Assembly: GCF_010119975.1 (NCBI RefSeq)
Contig: NZ_CP048222.1
Location: 4,110,501 to 4,174,500 of the forward strand
Length of the DNA: 64,000 nt
Origin: Rhodocytophaga rosea
Lineage (GTDB): Bacteria > Bacteroidota > Bacteroidia > Cytophagales > 172606-1
Reading direction: 5' to 3'
Every line of letters begins with the position of its first letter. The first letter of the stretch is position 1. The notes beneath the pieces are model-generated. The model worked only from the letters and a program-made list of their open reading frames with translations. It searched no databases and was not told the origin of the DNA. A program made the translations under genes and the position numbers. Of the stretch, positions 5,898 to 36,437 are shown in pieces.

Positions 5898-8800
5898 ATG
5901 AGAGAACACAAAGGACTCGCCTTTACCAACTGGTGTATCGAGAACAAAACAACGGTCTATATCTTCATCATTATGGTGACGATAGCCGGTGTGTTCACCT
6001 ACCAGAATTTGCCCAAGGAATCATATCCGGAGATTGTAGTACCTCAAATGGTAGTTACCACTTTTAATTATGGTACTAGTCCGGAAGATGTGGAAAACCT
6101 GATTACCAAACCGATTGAAAAAGAACTCAAAACGGTAAAAGGAATAAAAAAGGTTACTTCTAATTCTATTCAGGATCTTTCTGCTGTAATTGTCGAATTC
6201 AATACTGGAGAAGATGTGGCAGAGGCCAAACAACGCACAAAGGATGCCGTTGATAAAGCACGAACTGAATTACCCGATGACTTGGATCAAGAGCCAGATG
6301 TACAGGAACTGGATTTTTCCGAATTTCCGGTCATGCAGGTGAACGTATCTGGTAATTTCCCTCTTAAAAAGCTGAAAGAATTTGCCGAAGTATTACAGGA
6401 TGAGATTGAAGCCTTGCCTCAGGTTCGCCGAGCAGATCTGATTGGTGCTTTAAACCGCGAAATTCAGATCAACGTGGATTTGTACCGGATGCAGGCGGCA
6501 GGCATTAACTTCAGTAATATTCAACAGGCAGTTGCCGGTGAAAACATAAATATTTCCGGAGGTGATCTGAATGTAAATGATGTTCGCCGTACGCTCCGGG
6601 TTACCGGTGAATTCAAGAACATCAAAAGCCTGCAGGATATTGTAATTCGGTCTTCTACCGGAAATACAGTATTCTTGAAGGAAATCGCAACAGTAGAAGA
6701 TAGTTATGAAGAACGTCAGGATTTCGCCCGTCTGAATGGAAACCCGGTTATTTCATTGAGTGTAATTAAACGCTCAGGACAGAACCTGATCGAAGCATCT
6801 GACAACGTACAGCAGATTGTGGAACGGATGAAGGCAGAAACTTTTCCCGAAGGATTAAATATCACCATTACAGGTGACCAGTCAGACCAGACCCGTACTG
6901 ATTTGAATGACCTGCTTAATACCATTATTCTGGGTTTTATATTCGTAGTACTGGTGCTGATGTTCTTTATGGGAACCAGAGATGCTATTTTTGTTGCCCT
7001 CTCTGTACCCTTATCTGCATTGCTTGCATTTTTGATTCTGAAAGTGGTAGGCTATTTTATGCCGGAAATTAATCTTACCCTGAACTTCATGGTAATGTTC
7101 GCCTTCCTGCTGGGATTAGGGATTGTGGTGGACGATGCCATTGTGGTAATCGAAAATACACACCGTATTTTTAACTCAGAAAATATATCCATTAAAGATG
7201 CGGCAAAAAAAGCAGCCGGAGAAGTGTTTATACCAGTGCTTTCCGGTACCATTACGACCATAGCACCATTCGTACCCTTACTCTTCTGGCCCGGGCTGAT
7301 CGGAGAATTTATGAAGTTCCTGCCTATCACCCTGATCGCCACCTTGTTCGCTTCTCTAGTGGTAGCCTATGTGATGAACCCAGTATTCGCTGTTTCCTTC
7401 ATGACCAAGCATGATGCAGAAAGTGCCGGAGACGCCCGTAAACTGATAAAGCCACTGCTGATTATGGGAGTGATTGCTGTATTGTGCTATATCGGTGTTG
7501 GAGTAGGTTTAGGGAATTTTATTGTCTTCCTGATGCTGATCTATGTGATAAACCACTATGTATTTACGCCAGCGATCTATAAATTCCAGCACAATTTATG
7601 GCCCAGGTTTATGCATCAATACCGCAGGTTTATCTCTTTTGCCATTACAGGGCGTCGGCCAGTGTATTTTCTGTTAGGTGTAATAGGTTTATTCATTTTT
7701 ACTTTTGGCATATTCGGGGCTTTCCCGCCACCTGTAGAATTTTTCCCTTCCGGAGAGCCTAACTTTGTATATGTGTATAACAAAATGCCTATTGGAACAG
7801 ATGCTACCAAAACAGATTCAGTTACTAAACTAATTGAAGCGAGAGTAAATAAGGTTCTGGTGCCTCATAAGGATATAGTGACCTCGGTTATTTCCAATGT
7901 GGGTATAGGCGCCGGTGATCCCATAAATCCGGATCTTACCATTACACCTCATAAGAGTAAGGTAACGGTAGCTTTTGTTAAGTTTGAAGAACGCCTGCAT
8001 GTATCTACCAAAGAAATTCTGGAAAAAATACGGGCCAGTGTACAAGATATTCCAGGTACCGAACTTTCGGTAGAACAAGAAAGTGGGGGTCCGCAGGTAG
8101 GTAAACCGGTGAGTATAGAAATGGCCGGAGCCGATTTTAATGAGTTATTGAAAATTCAGCGAATGGTTCGGGCTGCCATTGCCAAAGCTGGTGTTCAGGG
8201 TATTGAAGAACTCAAGTCAGATCTGGTACTGAACAAACCTGAAATTATTGTGGACATCGATCGTGAAAAAGCGGCCCGTGAAGGTATTTCTACCGCCCAG
8301 ATTGCTGGGGAAATTCGTACCGCCTTGTATGGACTGGAAGTATCTCAGTACCGGGAAGCCAAAGATGAGTATCCGATTATGGTGCGCCTTGATACTACCT
8401 ACCGCAACCGGATTGAAGATATTTTAGCCATGAATATTTCTTATCTGGATATGGCATCTGGCAGGTTCCGGCAGGTTCCTTTAAATGCAGTAGCAGATGT
8501 CAGGTATGGAACTTCTTTTAGCAGCATCAACCGCAAAAACCAGGAACGGTTGGTTACCTTATCTTCTAACCTGTTAACCGGATATAATGCCAATGAAGTG
8601 GTAGCCCAGGTACAGGAAGCGATCAACGATCTGGAACTTCCGGCAGGATATACTATAAAAATGGGAGGCGAGCAGGAAGACCAGCAGGAAACATTCTTGT
8701 TTTTAATTACTGCCCTGGCCACAGCCGTTGCACTCATCTTTATTGTGCTTGTTACGCAGTTTAATTCTGTTTCAAAACCCATTATCATTTTCATGACCAT

Positions 8801-29346: not shown

Positions 29347-29631
29347 ATGAAGCCAAGAGGAAAACAAGGGGAATTTTGGGAAGAAATTAACCGGGTACTA
29401 TGGGAGGAATGGGACCCTATCAGTGTTGGCAAACATGAATGGATAAGGGATGAGTATAAAAGTTATGTACCTTCTATTTTTAAGCTTTTGATACAGAATG
29501 AATCAGCCACTATTATTGCCTACCGGTTGAATGAACATGCAAGGGTAAGTATGGGGCTTCATCCTGATTCGGAACATAACTTGGCTATCGCCAAAAGGTT
29601 AATTATTCTCAAAGAACAATTTATTGGTTAA
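29347..29631 (+). CDS. Small conserved-looking hypothetical protein
   Basis: 94 residues, soluble. It contains NRVLWEEWDPISVG and RDEYKSYVPSIFKLL, a pattern I associate with small uncharacterised DUF1871-like proteins (WDPIG..., DEYD.Y...). ATG at 29347 is preceded by GGAAATGACAT, with no strong ribosome-binding site. It is followed 75 bp later by rsgA on the same strand. Function unknown; it may be an immunity-type or adaptor protein, but nothing here supports a specific role. Confidence 0.7.
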   Translation: MKPRGKQGEFWEEINRVLWEEWDPISVGKHEWIRDEYKSYVPSIFKLLIQNESATIIAYRLNEHARVSMGLHPDSEHNLAIAKRLIILKEQFIG

Positions 29632-29706: not shown

Positions 29707-30633
29707 ATGCAAGAAGGATTAGTTATCCGGTCCACCGGTTCGTGGTATGAAGTAATGTCAGAAGACAAGCAGATATATCAGTGCCGTTTACGGGGAAAAT
29801 TCAAAATAAAGGGGCTCAAAGTCACTAATCCTATTGCGGTGGGCGACCGGGTAAAATACCAGGTAGAAGATGTGGCTGCCAATACCGGAATTATTCAGGA
29901 AATACTGCCCAGAGAGAATTACATCATCCGGAAATCTGTACAGAAAGCGGCGTATGGACATATGCTGGCAGCCAATATTGACCAGGCCATTTTACTGGTG
30001 ACGCTGGCTTTTCCCAGAACTTCCCTTGGCTTTATTGACCGTTTTCTGGTTACTGCTGAATCATTCCGTATTCCGAGCCGGATTGTATTTAACAAAGCAG
30101 ACTTACTGGATGAAGAAGCACTTGAGATTCAGCAGGAAATTGCAACTATTTATGAGAATATAGGATATCCCTGCCTGCTTACTTCTGTAGTAAACAAACA
30201 AGGTATAGAAGCCTTCCAGAATATATTAACCAACAAAAAATCATTGCTTGCCGGGCATTCTGGAGTGGGAAAATCGTCATTGGTGAATCTGATTGCGCCT
30301 GGTCTGCAACTTCGTACTTCTGAGGTTTCCACCTTTGCCAATAAAGGTGTCCACACTACTACATTTGCCGAAATGTTTGAAATCGCCGAAAATACCTATA
30401 TTATTGACACACCCGGCATTAAAGAACTCGGACTGATCGATATAGAAAAAGAAGAATTAAGCCATTTTTTTCCGGAAATGCGGAAAATGCTGGGGCAATG
30501 CAAGTTTTATAACTGCACTCATGTACATGAACCAGGTTGTGCAGTAATAGAAGCGGTAGTGAATGAGCAAATCGCTCAAAGCCGCTACGAAAGTTACTTG
30601 AGTATGCTGGATGATACCGATAACCGCAGATAA
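29707..30633 (+). CDS. rsgA: Ribosome small subunit biogenesis GTPase RsgA
   Basis: 308 residues. It acts late in 30S subunit maturation. The order is an OB-fold N-terminus (residues 1-70), then a circularly permuted GTPase: NKADLLD (G4) before GHSGVGKSSLVN (G1) and DTPGIKELG (G3). The zinc knuckle CKFYNCTHVHEPGC follows, then a C-terminal helix. Length is normal. A perfect hairpin terminator follows at 30661. The last codons of this gene are duplicated as a remnant at about 32908-33017. Confidence 0.97.
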   Translation: MQEGLVIRSTGSWYEVMSEDKQIYQCRLRGKFKIKGLKVTNPIAVGDRVKYQVEDVAANTGIIQEILPRENYIIRKSVQKAAYGHMLAANIDQAILLVTLAFPRTSLGFIDRFLVTAESFRIPSRIVFNKADLLDEEALEIQQEIATIYENIGYPCLLTSVVNKQGIEAFQNILTNKKSLLAGHSGVGKSSLVNLIAPGLQLRTSEVSTFANKGVHTTTFAEMFEIAENTYIIDTPGIKELGLIDIEKEELSHFFPEMRKMLGQCKFYNCTHVHEPGCAVIEAVVNEQIAQSRYESYLSMLDDTDNRR

Positions 30634-30660
30634 AAGGTTACAGATTCTATTATTCACACA

Positions 30661-30688
30661 AAAGCCAGATAGAAGCCTATCTGGCTTT
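30661..30688. terminator. Bidirectional terminator rsgA / T9SS gene copy A
   Basis: Perfect 12-bp stem AAAGCCAGATAG/CTATCTGGCTTT with a 4-nt loop, between convergent genes. A degenerate copy lies at 33041-33068. Confidence 0.85.
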
Positions 30689-30710
30689 GGCATACAAATT
30701 AGAGCAAACG

Positions 30711-32635
30711 TTACTTTACCAATACAACCTTATTTGTAATTACCTTGCCTGGTGTTGCTAATCGTACAATATAAACACCTTCCTGCTGCCCGTTAGGCTG
30801 CCATTCTACACTGTTGGTTCCTCCGGCCTGCATTTCTCCAGCAAATACATTAGTTGCTTCTATTCCTTTGCTATCATAAATTCTCAGACTGACAGGCCCT
30901 GTTTGCTGTGCAGTAAAGTTGAAGGTTATTTTCTCTCTGAAAGGATTGGGAAATGCTTCCAGCTTCAAAAGTGTTTCTTCCGGTGCTTTTTCTTCTACAG
31001 CGGCCAGCCTTGCTCCTGTGGCCACATAAGAGACACTGGCTGCCCATCCCGGATAATTTATACTGCCATCGGAAACAAAGCGCAGGGTAAGGCTGCCAGT
31101 AGAGGAAGTAATGATACCAGGACTGGTGCTGCCGGTGTAGACTCCGATCAGGGGTGAAGCAGTGGAAGTGCCATCATAGATGTAGAGTTTGTCATAGTTG
31201 TTTTCCAGCTGAAAAGAAGTAAAAGTCAGGCGCAGTTTATAGCCGACTCTGGGCGATAAAGTCTGGGTAAGATTCAGGTTATTCTGATAATTGGCTGCAA
31301 ATCCGGGATCATAGTAGGTGGTACCGGCATTCACACCTGTAGAGCCACTGCTCATCACAATCTCTCCTGGTTGGATCTGCCTGGTGGTTTTAACTACCCA
31401 GAAATCATGATTCCCTTTGCTGGGTTGAGACACATCTTTCCCTGCTTCTGCATCTGTAACACCTGCCAATATAAAGCCTCCATCATTAGTTTGAAATCCG
31501 GAACGTAAAACACTATAATGAAATAGACCATTTCCAGAAACAGGGTTCGCTTTAAAAGTTCTACTCCATTGTATTTGCCCACTCCCGGTAATTTTGAATA
31601 ATTGGCTATAACGATTGTAGTGATCATCAGTAGCCTCACTCAATAACAAATATCCGCCATCATTGTCCTTGATAACATTCACACCTTCATTATAAATCAC
31701 TGCATATCCGGCTGATAGATCCCATTGTTTAATGCCGGTACTAGTGATTTTTACAATCCAGTGTGAGCTGTAACTGGTACTGTAACTGGTACTAAGTGTG
31801 GTTTTATCTCCACTGATGCCTGATTCAGAAGTGCCTCCCAATAAATAGCCGCCATCACTGGTTTGTGTCAATGAAGTTAAATACTCATTATAGTCGCCCC
31901 CAAAGGATTTATCCCATTGTTTGGTGCATTGCTTGTTATTTTTACTATCCAGTAATCATCAGCCCCTTTATTGGCTGCAGTTTTATCCCCACTGATGCCT
32001 GAGTAAGAATGGCCTCCCACTAAAAAGCCGCCATCACTGGTTTGTATCAATGAAGTTAAGTCATCGAAACCGTCACCGCCAAAGGATTTATCCCATTGTT
32101 TGGTGCCATCGCTTGTTGTTTTTACTATCCAGTAATCTGAATCCCCTTTACTTGCCTGGCTTTTATCGCCCCCGACACCTGAATCGGAATGGCCTGCGAG
32201 TAGAAAACCACCATCACTGGTTTGTATCAATGAAGTTAAGTCATCGAAACCGTCACCGCCAAAGGATTTGTCCCATTGTTTGGTGCCATCGCTTGAAATC
32301 TTGACCACCCAGTAATCAATAGCCCCTTTATTGGCTGCAGTTTTATCCCCACTGATGCTTGAGTAAGAATGGCCTCCCACTAAAAAGCCGCCATCTGCGG
32401 TAGGTATGATTTTCTTAGCCCTATCTTCATTACTGCCTCCGAAGCGTTTATCCCACTCTTTTACAGGGGTAGCCTGTGCCTGTGCCAGGTCTATAATGAG
32501 GCTCAGTAAACAAACTGTGAACAGGCATACTTTTATCAGCAGGGCAGTAGTTGATGTTCTATAATTGGCAGCCTTGCCTGAGAAGTTAGTTGAAGTTGTT
32601 TTAATACTTTTTTGGGTAGAAGGATAGAGATACAT
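30711..32635 (-). pseudogene. T9SS-sorted CUB/repeat protein, copy A, frameshifted
   Basis: Two overlapping fragments (31877-32635 and 30711-31871) form one gene broken near 31927. Sibling repeats read TTGGTGCCATCGC where this one reads TTGGTGCATTGC, so one base is missing. Restored, the product would be about 641 residues: signal peptide (to AQAQA), four or five 60-residue propeller-like repeats (WDKSFGG...TSDGGFLLAGHS...DYWIVK), a CUB domain (YYDPGFAANYQNN, YDKLYIYDG) and a T9SS type A sorting domain (EAFPNPF..., ending VVLVK). The repeats are 180 bp apart at DNA level and nearly identical at 32041 and 32221. It is a tandem paralogue of the intact gene at 33091. It is either a pseudogene, a phase-variable gene or a sequencing error. 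Confidence 0.85.
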
Positions 32636-32721
32636 ATAGTAGGTAGTGTGTTAAAGGTTATACAATTGAGTTGATAATAAATTGATTGGTTTGTGCTGAA
32701 TAATGCGTTTGAAGCATGGTT

Positions 32722-32729
32722 CAAAAGTA
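32722..32729 (-). promoter_or_regulatory. -7 box of T9SS gene copy A
   Basis: The complement reads TACTTTTG, a perfect TANNTTTG, 87 bp before the ATG. The box is conserved in the duplicated upstream region of copy B (35231-35238). Confidence 0.5.
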
Positions 32730-32907
32730 ATGCATGCCCAAAAAAAGTGTTATTACATATGTTCCAATCTTTGTAACTCTCGTCCTATGGGTGTTTTTTT
32801 TCAACAATTCTGCTGTGTTTCTTCTAAAAATATGGCTTACATCAACCAACACTCCGGCACAAGTCGATTTTCTCGCATAGTAATGTGGTTTAAAGCGTGA
32901 AGGGAAA

Positions 32908-33017
32908 GGTGCACAACCAGACAGTGGTATATGGAAGCAGTAGCCAAGGATGAAATCACTCAGAGCCGCTATGAAAGGTACCTGAGTATGCTGGACGATT
33001 TGGATAATCGCAGATAG
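32908..33017 (+). pseudogene. rsgA: Remnant of rsgA 3' end
   Basis: The 28 codons before the TAG at 33015-33017 encode MEAVAKDEITQSRYERYLSM followed by LDDLDNRR. The genuine rsgA ends IEAVVNEQIAQSRYESYLSM followed by LDDTDNRR. Similarity continues upstream with a frameshift to about 32908 and then stops. It is a passenger of the tandem duplication, without start signals and not expected to be functional. Confidence 0.85.
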
Positions 33018-33040
33018 TTATTTAAATACTCATATACACA

Positions 33041-33068
33041 AAAGCCAGATAGTCTCCTACCTGGCTCT
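33041..33068. terminator. Degenerate copy of the rsgA terminator
   Basis: AAAGCCAGATAG/CTACCTGGCTCT, the same hairpin as 30661-30688 with two changed bases in the right arm. It may still terminate the copy B gene on the minus strand. Confidence 0.65.
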
Positions 33069-33090
33069 TGATTATAAGCATACAGTTGCT

Positions 33091-35160
33091 TTATCTGATC
33101 AATACGATTTTATTGGTAATGACTCTACCTGGAGTGCCCAAGCGTATAATGTAAACACCTTCCTGCTGTCCGTTAGGCTGCCATTCCAGACTTTTGGTTT
33201 CTCCAGCCTGCATTTCTCCGGCAAATACATCAGCCGCCTCTATGCCTTTGCTATCATAAATCTTTAGATTGACTGGCCCTGTTTGCTGTACAGTAAAGTT
33301 GAAAGTTATTCTCTCTCTGAAAGGATTAGGAAAAGCTTCCAGCTTCAGAAGTGTTTCTTGTGTATCTTCTACTGCTGTTTCTTCTGCTGCGAGTCTTGCT
33401 CCCACTGGCACATAAGAGATGTTAGCTACCCATCCCGGAGAAGTAGCTATAGCATCAGAGGTAAAGCGAAAAGTAAGACTTCCTCCTGAGGAAGTGATGA
33501 TACCAGGACTGTTAGAACCTGTATATACCCCAATCAAAGGAGCTGAAGTGGAAGTGCCATTATAGATGTAGAGTTTGTCGTATATATTCTCTAATTGAAA
33601 AGAAGTGAAAGTGAGACGTAGTTTATAGCCGGCTCTGGCTGACAGCGTCTGAGTTACATTCAGATTGTCTTGATAATTGACCAAAAAACCGGGATCATAG
33701 TAAATATTACCAGAACTAACGCCAATAGATCCACTCCTCATCACAATCTCTCCTGGTTTGATTTTACGTATGGTTTTAACTACCCAGAAGTCATTCATAC
33801 CTTTGCTTGGCTGGGAAATATCTCCTTCTACACCCAGATCTGTAAACCCTCCCATTACAATACTTCCATCCGATGTTTGAAACGCAGAAACCAGATAAGT
33901 CTTATGTACACCTCCTAGCTCATAACCACCAATGCCTCCCTTATAAAATGAAACCCACTGAGTCTTGCCATTTTTATCAATCTTTTTCAATTCGGCATAA
34001 ATTTGATAATTAGCATCGGGAGAATAGGTATCATCCATTGTACTTAATATCAGATATCCACCGTCTGAATCTTTAATAAGATCTTGATGAAAACCAAATC
34101 CAGGGTAAATTTCCCATTGTAGTATTCCACTACCATCTGTTTTTACAATCCATTGTTTACCTTCATAAATCTCATCATAATGACCACCTAATAAATACCC
34201 TCCATCATCTGTTGCAAGTAGGGAAGAACAACCGTCATTGTCCAAACTCCCAAAACGTTTATCCCACAGTTTATGGCCGCTGGTATTTATTTTTATCATC
34301 CAATAATCTTTACCGCCCCAGCTAGGCTCTGTTTTCTCACCGCTTACACCTGAATTAGACGAACCAGCAAGCATATAATTTCCATCTGTAGTCATAATCA
34401 TAGCACCTAGAAAATCCCCTGCTGAACCCCCAAAACGTCTATCCCATTGTTTAGCACCAGTGCTGGTAATTTTAATAATCCAGTAATCACTCCCTCCTCT
34501 GCTTGCTTCGCTTTTATCGCCGCCTGTATCCGAGTTAGAATAACCGCCTAATAAGTATCCTCCATCTGCTGTTTGTACCACCGCCCGCAATCCATCGTTA
34601 CCTGTACCTCCGAAGCGTTTATCCCATTGTTTGATGCCACCGCTCGAGATTTTTATGACCCAGCCATCCTGCCCTCCTCTGCTTGCTTCTGTTTTGTCTC
34701 CACCAGTCCCGGAATAAGAATTGCCAACGAGCAAAAAGCCTCCATCTGAAGTTTGAATCACAGACCTAAGCTCATCATCGAGGTTACCTCCGAAGCGTCT
34801 GTCCCATTCTTTATCTCCAGCTGCCCGGATTTTTACTATCCAGTAATCCATGCGGCCTCTGCTTGTTTCTGATTTATCTCCGCTAATACCTGAATAAGAA
34901 TTTCCTGCCAGTAAATAACCTCCGTCTTTGGTAGGAATAACTTTTGCAATCTTATCATCATTGCTACCCCCAAAGCGCCTGTCCCATAGTTTTTCACCTT
35001 GTGCCTGTATTAGATCTGTAATTAGGCTGATTATACAAGCCGTTAACAGGCATACTTTTATCAGGAAGGCGGTAGCAGATGTTCTGTAAACTGCAGGCTT
35101 GCCTAAGTGCTTAGTTGGAGTGATGTTAATCTTTTTTGGAGTAGACAAATAGAGATACAT
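33091..35160 (-). CDS. T9SS-sorted secreted repeat protein with CUB domain, copy B
   Basis: About 689 residues from the ATG matching copy A (complement of 35158-35160); the frame extends 22 codons further upstream without support. A signal peptide (FLIKVCLLTACIISLI..., ending IQAQ) is followed by six or more repeats of about 60 residues (WDRRFGG...DGGYLLAGNSYSG...DYWIVKI), resembling delta-60/propeller repeats. A CUB domain has YYDPGFLVNYQDN and YDKLYIYNG. The T9SS sorting domain spans the last 85 residues (EAFPNPFRERITFNF to KIVLIR). It is expected to reach the cell surface through the PorU-dependent T9SS. Function is unknown; adhesion or polymer binding is plausible from the CUB domain. Confidence 0.9.
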   Translation of the reverse strand: MYLYLSTPKKINITPTKHLGKPAVYRTSATAFLIKVCLLTACIISLITDLIQAQGEKLWDRRFGGSNDDKIAKVIPTKDGGYLLAGNSYSGISGDKSETSRGRMDYWIVKIRAAGDKEWDRRFGGNLDDELRSVIQTSDGGFLLVGNSYSGTGGDKTEASRGGQDGWVIKISSGGIKQWDKRFGGTGNDGLRAVVQTADGGYLLGGYSNSDTGGDKSEASRGGSDYWIIKITSTGAKQWDRRFGGSAGDFLGAMIMTTDGNYMLAGSSNSGVSGEKTEPSWGGKDYWMIKINTSGHKLWDKRFGSLDNDGCSSLLATDDGGYLLGGHYDEIYEGKQWIVKTDGSGILQWEIYPGFGFHQDLIKDSDGGYLILSTMDDTYSPDANYQIYAELKKIDKNGKTQWVSFYKGGIGGYELGGVHKTYLVSAFQTSDGSIVMGGFTDLGVEGDISQPSKGMNDFWVVKTIRKIKPGEIVMRSGSIGVSSGNIYYDPGFLVNYQDNLNVTQTLSARAGYKLRLTFTSFQLENIYDKLYIYNGTSTSAPLIGVYTGSNSPGIITSSGGSLTFRFTSDAIATSPGWVANISYVPVGARLAAEETAVEDTQETLLKLEAFPNPFRERITFNFTVQQTGPVNLKIYDSKGIEAADVFAGEMQAGETKSLEWQPNGQQEGVYIIRLGTPGRVITNKIVLIR

Positions 35161-35230
35161 ATAGTAGGTATGTGTTAAGTGGTTATACAATTGATTGGTT
35201 TGTGGTGAATCATGCTTTTGAAGCATGGTT

Positions 35231-35238
35231 CAAAAATA
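35231..35238 (-). promoter_or_regulatory. -7 box of T9SS gene copy B
   Basis: The complement reads TATTTTTG, a perfect TANNTTTG, 71 bp before the chosen ATG, in the block conserved with copy A. The -33 element is not clear. Confidence 0.5.
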
Positions 35239-35447
35239 GTGCATGCCCAAAAAAAGGGTTATCACATATGTTCCAATCTTTATAACTCTCGTCCTACAAG
35301 TATTTTTTTACTACAATTCTGCTGTATTTTTTCAAAAAAATATGGCTTGTATAATCGGACAGTCCGGCAGGAAGAGAGTTTCTCTTGGCAGAATGGGATA
35401 TAGTCTAATAGGAAAAGTGTTGCCGGGAACGGTAAAATAAAAATATC

Positions 35448-36437
35448 CTATGGACGAAATTTAAGAAAGATCCGCAGATAGAGTTTATATAAACTCCATA
35501 CGCTGATCTTGTGTGTTGACAGCCATAATATTACCTGTGTGATAAAATCTATATAGCTCAGCTCTTTGAGTAAAGCTGCATATCCTGAAACCAGAGGATA
35601 GTTTTTTGTATAATAACTCTGCCGCAGGTGATACCTAATATTGGTTGCCAGTGCCTGCCGTTCTCCTTCAGTCCGGTTTAGTTTGTATGCTTTCTGGCAA
35701 ACGATAAGCGTGGATTCCAGTAGCTTATTCTGGCGCAACTGGTAAAATTTTGTTGACAGAGAGCCTTTTACTTTGCGTTTGAAGGTTAAAATCTCATCCT
35801 GATAGGCATATTTATATTTCCTGGACGAACGCACCCAGAAGTCGAAATCTTCATAACTCAAGGATTCATCATAGCCGCCCAGTGCCTCCAACACGCTTTT
35901 GCGCATCATCATGGTAGGCGTACAAATAAAATACTGCTGTAATACTTGCTGATACACATCTCCGGAAGGAATACTTTTTCTGGACTTTCCCTGCGTATCC
36001 GTCTGGTAATGATGTGATACAACAATGGAGCGCTCGTTTATATAAGCGGCATTAGAAAATATTACACCATAGCGAGTATCCAGCGTTTCAAACAGGCTTA
36101 CCTGTTTTTCTATCCTTGTATCAAGCAGTACGTCGTCGGCCGCAAGATCAATAATGTATGTACCGGAAGCCAGCAATAGTGCCCGGTTAAAGGAACGGCA
36201 ATTACCCAGATTGATTTCATTTACCAGAAACTGTACCTGCGGATGTTCTTTCAAAAATGCATGAATGACTGCCACACTGTTATCACTACTGGCATCATCT
36301 ACCACGATCAGCTCGATAGCAGCATATGTCTGGTTAATTACCGAAAACAGGGCTTCTGTTACAAACCGCTCATGGTTATAGCACAAACAAATAACCGTCA
36401 CCGGCGGATAAGCTCTTCTGTCTGAGGGAGTCAACAA
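35448..36437 (-). CDS. Family 2 glycosyltransferase
   Basis: 329 residues. The GT-A nucleotide-sugar site starts VTVICLCYNHERFVTEAL, continues with LIVVDDASSDNSV, and has the metal-binding acidic motif in IDLAADDVLLD in place of a plain DxD. A second acidic stretch, GYDESLSYEDFDFWVR, supplies the likely catalytic base. The C-terminal 100 residues are basic and helical without a clear membrane span. It transfers a sugar from a nucleotide donor, probably for a surface polysaccharide or lipid. It is isolated from other glycan genes, and donor and acceptor are unknown. Confidence 0.92.
   Translation of the reverse strand: MLTPSDRRAYPPVTVICLCYNHERFVTEALFSVINQTYAAIELIVVDDASSDNSVAVIHAFLKEHPQVQFLVNEINLGNCRSFNRALLLASGTYIIDLAADDVLLDTRIEKQVSLFETLDTRYGVIFSNAAYINERSIVVSHHYQTDTQGKSRKSIPSGDVYQQVLQQYFICTPTMMMRKSVLEALGGYDESLSYEDFDFWVRSSRKYKYAYQDEILTFKRKVKGSLSTKFYQLRQNKLLESTLIVCQKAYKLNRTEGERQALATNIRYHLRQSYYTKNYPLVSGYAALLKELSYIDFITQVILWLSTHKISVWSLYKLYLRIFLKFRP

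Follow-up and report, generated by a model that had tools for sequence, protein, structure and literature searches.

An rsgA gene tail between two T9SS genes of Rhodocytophaga rosea, the probable mark of an old tandem duplication

In the genome of Rhodocytophaga rosea (8.98 Mb, single contig), two neighboring genes of the T9SS type are separated by a stretch that reads as the end of rsgA. How did a second end of this housekeeping gene come to lie there? We addressed this question in a window of 64,000 nucleotides, the whole stretch of DNA analyzed (positions 4,110,501 to 4,174,500 of contig NZ_CP048222.1); unless a locus is named, coordinates below are those of the window. By title, the Rhodocytophaga literature contains nothing on this locus. 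Our interpretation, held with good confidence, is that an old tandem duplication, one of whose breakpoints fell within rsgA, followed the arrival of a T9SS gene (or its loss in Rhodocytophaga aerolata).

Two colinear units between rsgA and a glycosyltransferase gene

The left flank is an intact rsgA gene (29707–30633, plus strand) encoding a small-ribosomal-subunit biogenesis GTPase of 308 amino acids (TIGR00157, 246 bits; PF03193, 183 bits). A preliminary description of this DNA had called the gene essential; rsgA mutants of Escherichia coli and Bacillus subtilis are viable and slow-growing. The right flank is a GT2 glycosyltransferase gene (35448–36437, minus strand; PF00535, 3.3e-25), also identified by synteny. 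Two colinear units lie head to tail between them, unit 1 from 30547 to approximately 32905 and unit 2 from 32931 to approximately 35385. Read from the left, each unit opens with the final 28 codons of rsgA; a short spacer and a hairpin come next, followed by a T9SS gene on the minus strand and by approximately 250 bp of the DNA upstream of that gene. In unit 1, these 28 codons and the stop that follows them (30547–30633, plus strand; direct repeat D8) form the functional 3′ end of rsgA. Unit 2 begins with a second tail of 28 in-frame codons and a stop, without the GTPase domain (32931–33017, plus strand; homology perhaps from 32915).

A repeat search and BLASTN placed the units in one register, with a duplicated segment of approximately 2.4 kb and a spacing of approximately 2.38–2.53 kb. 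The paired blocks are the rsgA tails (30547–30632 and 32931–33016, 80% identity), the hairpins (30656–30697 and 33036–33077, 79%), the 3′ ends of the T9SS genes (30711–30996 and 33091–33376, 83%), the signal-peptide regions (32475–32669 and 35000–35194, 77%), and two upstream blocks (32666–32830 and 35175–35339, 86%; 32826–32874 and 35336–35384, 73%). In a DNA search, the upstream DNA of the two T9SS genes was 81% identical over 259 bp. Local alignment of the two tail-plus-hairpin segments scored 155, a value reached by none of 200 shuffles (mean 23.5, sd 3.7, maximum 38). On the left, homology begins securely at 30547/32931 and perhaps already at 30530/32915; on the right, it is secure to 32874/35384 and may reach about 32905/35425. 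Whole-genome DNA searches found two copies each of the tail/hairpin and of the upstream non-coding DNA and no third. A whole-genome search with the RsgA protein independently matched residues 281–308 to the second tail (E 7.7e-5, 71% identity), and this fragment is the sole second copy of rsgA sequence in the 8.98-Mb genome.

The arrangement is that of a tandem segmental duplication: the copies stand head to tail and in register with their non-coding DNA included, a fragment of the flanking gene lies at the internal join (32931–33017), and the intact rsgA (29707–30633) lies at the outer edge. The preliminary description of this DNA had proposed a duplication that started inside rsgA and left approximately 28 C-terminal codons between the two T9SS genes while rsgA itself stayed intact, a proposal that predicts DNA similarity outside the coding repeats. 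The tail, hairpin, and upstream DNA all repeat, and the proposal is supported.

The two T9SS genes and their upstream DNA

T9SS gene 2 is intact (33091–35226, minus strand) and encodes a signal region, repeats of approximately 60 amino acids, a CUB domain, and a type A sorting domain; its homologous start is probably 35160, not 35226. The copy proximal to rsgA, T9SS gene 1, is split into two minus-strand ORFs by a one-base deletion near 31926 (31920–31935). The C-terminal part (30711–31871) contains repeats, the CUB domain (PF00431, 6.7e-14), and the type A sorting domain (PF18962, 3e-6; TIGR04183, 34.0 bits), and the N-terminal part (31877–32635), a separate ORF out of frame with it, contains the signal region and repeats of approximately 60 amino acids. 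The repeat spacing in gene 1 is 179 nt at 31748/31927 and 180 nt elsewhere. Two T9SS copies are thus present, as first described, but the frameshift in one of them had gone unmentioned. The dN/dS between the copies is approximately 0.19 in each half of the frameshifted gene, and by this measure both copies appear to be under purifying selection. Since both halves of gene 1 are still conserved, the frameshift is either recent or a sequencing error, and gene 1 is accordingly a recent pseudogene or a gene misread at one base.

As in type A T9SS substrates (PF18962/TIGR04183; PMC10202324), the C-terminal sorting domains of both genes pass the TIGR04183 cut-off of 23 bits (31.2 for gene 2 and 34.0 for gene 1). 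The corresponding Pfam scores are 22.6 and 27.9 bits against a cut-off of 27, which places gene 2 below Pfam's own threshold. Here the sorting domain is combined with a CUB domain and with the 60-residue repeats, which are weakly similar to SBBP β-propeller repeats. From the sorting domain, T9SS-dependent secretion is predicted for both proteins.

The two copies are by far each other's best matches (68% in the C-terminal half); the next-best relatives are a CUB relative at 44% and repeat paralogs at 56–57%. Approximately 20 further R. rosea loci share the same repeats, several of them with a sorting domain, but only this pair is colinear through the signal region, repeats, CUB domain, and sorting domain, with an rsgA fragment adjoining. 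No comparable gene-tail fragment was recognized beside the 20 other paralog loci among the matches listed outside the family region. The repeat protein had 85 matches in R. rosea and 20 in R. aerolata, with a query taken from R. rosea itself, and the family is possibly a lineage-specific expansion.

Within gene 1, neighboring repeats are up to 84% identical, whereas repeats of gene 1 and gene 2 share 61–67%. This pattern suggests concerted evolution of the repeats within each gene, and the duplication is better judged from the sequence outside the repeats. Divergence is uneven along the genes: pS is 0.65–0.67 in the CUB domain, whereas the signal-peptide region and a portion of the sorting domain have values of 0.32–0.35.

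The upstream (promoter) regions form the right ends of the units: 32636–32905 for gene 1 (minus strand, limit approximate; 81% identity over 259 nt to the unit 2 copy) and 35161–35425 for gene 2 (minus strand, delimited by repeat and alignment; limit approximate, secure to 35384). Their conservation is unusually high (81–86%) and includes a conserved dyad, TTTGAAGCATGGTTCAAA (about 32708–32725), and this DNA is possibly a regulatory region. A coding signal was rejected, with differences evenly spread over the three frames (7/8/8), and in an Rfam search of this DNA for structured RNA every match fell below threshold. At another locus of the genome (L131), a 113-bp direct repeat (7533–7643 and 8426–8537 of that locus, 83% identity) lies approximately 100 nt upstream of a T9SS repeat-protein paralog and again upstream of a neighboring 152-aa ORF. 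It looks like a shared upstream region.

The hairpins and the second rsgA tail

Hairpin 1 (30661–30688) lies between the convergent rsgA and T9SS gene 1 and has a perfect 12-bp stem, with folding energies of −18.2 kcal/mol on the plus strand and −24.2 kcal/mol on the minus strand (z −4.4 and −5.5). Hairpin 2 (33039–33070, minus strand), terminator-like and placed for T9SS gene 2, has a 14-bp stem that is complete on the minus strand and mismatched on the plus strand only (−29.2 and −13.8 kcal/mol, respectively). It is therefore stronger than hairpin 1 on the T9SS strand (−29.2 against −24.2) and weaker on the rsgA strand (−13.8 against −18.2). An A·C pair on one strand is a G·U pair on the other, so that the fold has been kept for the T9SS gene and weakened in the rsgA direction, in which no functional rsgA precedes hairpin 2. 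In each unit the hairpin lies directly 3′ of the T9SS stop codon on the minus strand. It is most simply read as the predicted terminator of the T9SS gene itself, one that in unit 1 may also serve the convergent rsgA. The unit 2 hairpin had been taken for a degraded copy of the rsgA terminator, which is probably wrong, given that its stem is intact and stronger on the T9SS strand.

The tail had likewise been described as dead. Tail 2 is promoterless and without evident function. In 28 relatives, one position of the tail is invariably Ala or Ser and another invariably Ser or Asn; tail 2 has Thr at the first and Arg at the second. These two substitutions at near-invariant residues make it likely that the description is right, and tail 2 is probably non-functional now. 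Neutrality since the duplication is less secure. Tails 1 and 2 differ by pS 0.47 and pN 0.14 (dN/dS 0.21), with no indel; differences by codon position number 4, 2, and 11, mostly at the third, and both frame and stop are kept. At the start of tail 2, ATA has become ATG. A neutral model for tail 2 compared with one free omega (0.32) gave 2ΔlnL of 2.94 in a likelihood ratio test (p approximately 0.09; 28 codons), so that neutrality throughout is not rejected. With the dS of the non-repeat parts of the T9SS genes (approximately 1.0) as a clock, tail 2 has too few amino acid changes; with that of the signal-peptide region (approximately 0.45), the changes fit. Tail 2 may have been constrained or converted during part of its history.

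Two other histories bear on this pattern. In the first, the duplication was larger and took in all of rsgA, and most of the second rsgA was later deleted, leaving 28 codons. Such a history would account for the constrained pattern of tail 2 (free omega 0.32), but an extra deletion is required, no other rsgA trace is seen at 32840–32930 (162 of 200 shuffles score as well), and, except for a distant paralog, the rest of the genome contains no other part of rsgA. We regard it as decidedly unlikely. In the second, a unit from the single-copy locus of a related species recombined at the rsgA 3′ end beside the resident allele, so that the two tails would be orthologous ends of functional rsgA genes rather than products of one duplication. 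In part, the tails have diverged as two functional genes would (third-position bias, dN/dS 0.21), and the T9SS dS is high (1.0–1.5) relative to the tail and the upstream DNA. Against this stand the two tail 2 residues that break family-invariant positions and the fact that neither a donor nor a single-copy relative was found in the family or in 292 genomes of the order; tandem duplication also takes one event fewer. Addition from a related species is thus unlikely. Taken together, the possibilities that tail 2 is a retained small ORF instead of debris, or that both units are xenologs joined from two species, appear very unlikely.

Relatives and the origin of the locus

The comparison within the genus rests on one genome, R. 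aerolata KACC 12507 (record NZ_JAUKPO010000011.1). Its RsgA is 76% identical to that of R. rosea, so the two are well-separated species. The gene order in R. aerolata, namely an endonuclease III-like gene, rsgA, GT2, and a lipoprotein gene, comprises the same neighbors as in R. rosea, but rsgA and GT2 are directly convergent, a few nucleotides apart, with nothing in between. On the rsgA side the alignment ends shortly after the stop codon, and on the GT2 side it begins at about 35469. The site in R. aerolata is empty. Between the endonuclease III-like gene and rsgA, R. rosea has a 94-aa ORF (29347–29631) with no Pfam match; in R. aerolata the two genes are approximately 175 nt apart and no counterpart is present.

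A protein search found no close relative of the T9SS gene in the family, and in 292 genomes of the order nothing approached the CUB-plus-sorting half closely, the remaining matches reaching at most 48% identity over part of it. A DNA search, run without a positive control in those genomes, found no close ortholog of the T9SS upstream DNA in the family. The preliminary description had predicted relatives with a single-copy rsgA–hairpin–T9SS gene arrangement. None was found: the one congener analyzed has no T9SS gene at this site, and the 292 genomes of the order yielded no close relative of the protein.

Another alternative is that the insert is a mobile cassette, integrated site-specifically at the rsgA 3′ end with regeneration of the gene end, the tails being attachment-site repeats. 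An rsgA tail does bound both units, and a 10-nt match to the tail, CCGCAGATAG, lies near 35470–35480 beside the glycosyltransferase gene. As a putative third tail, the match does not exceed chance (equaled or surpassed in 22 of 200 and 68 of 200 shuffles). As a candidate, the stretch near 35466–35480 was rejected because it is the glycosyltransferase's own coding end, aligned to R. aerolata, and the far end of the insert has no direct repeat of the tail. Apart from the T9SS genes, the interval from rsgA to the glycosyltransferase gene holds no ORF of a size expected for an integrase or transposase. A mobile cassette is extremely improbable.

We therefore return to the tandem duplication, for which a three-step history may be proposed. 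First, to judge from the congener, a T9SS repeat/CUB gene with its terminator and promoter would have arrived between the convergent rsgA and GT2 genes; alternatively, it was lost in R. aerolata. Second, as the repeat anatomy shows, approximately 2.4 kb, from within the last 28–34 codons of rsgA to the T9SS upstream DNA, was duplicated head to tail, so that the complete rsgA remained on the left while a copy of its tail, lacking a promoter, came to separate the two T9SS genes. Third, the copies diverged: gene 1 carries a one-base frameshift, and the unit 2 hairpin kept its fold on the T9SS strand only. The uneven divergence, the constrained-looking tail, and the failure to find a single-copy relative were counted against the duplication. 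There is no long shared sequence at the join, so illegitimate joining (short-homology or non-homologous) is the likely mechanism, in an event too old to show it.

Illegitimate joins commonly fall inside a neighboring gene and leave one intact and one truncated copy. Tandem duplication by illegitimate recombination is well known in bacteria (PMC11111574; works of Reams/Neidle and Shimizu cited there), and the present locus resembles such cases in its head-to-tail arrangement and in the lack of extended homology at its ends. It differs in being ancient and diverged (75–83% in the non-repeat parts) rather than fresh, and in showing no promoter capture, since gene 1 has its own promoter region between itself and the join. 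The mechanism is ordinary and leaves knowledge of bacterial duplication unchanged; the locus provides a readable record of the origin of one pair in a large family of secreted repeat proteins, with one breakpoint fixed in a housekeeping gene. It also shows that gene fragments of this kind can survive to approximately 20% divergence, and annotating them as genes should be avoided. Elsewhere in R. rosea, another adjacent pair of large genes (locus L144, 3036–4485 and 6853–8303) is 79% identical over 1462 nt at and around the 3′ ends.
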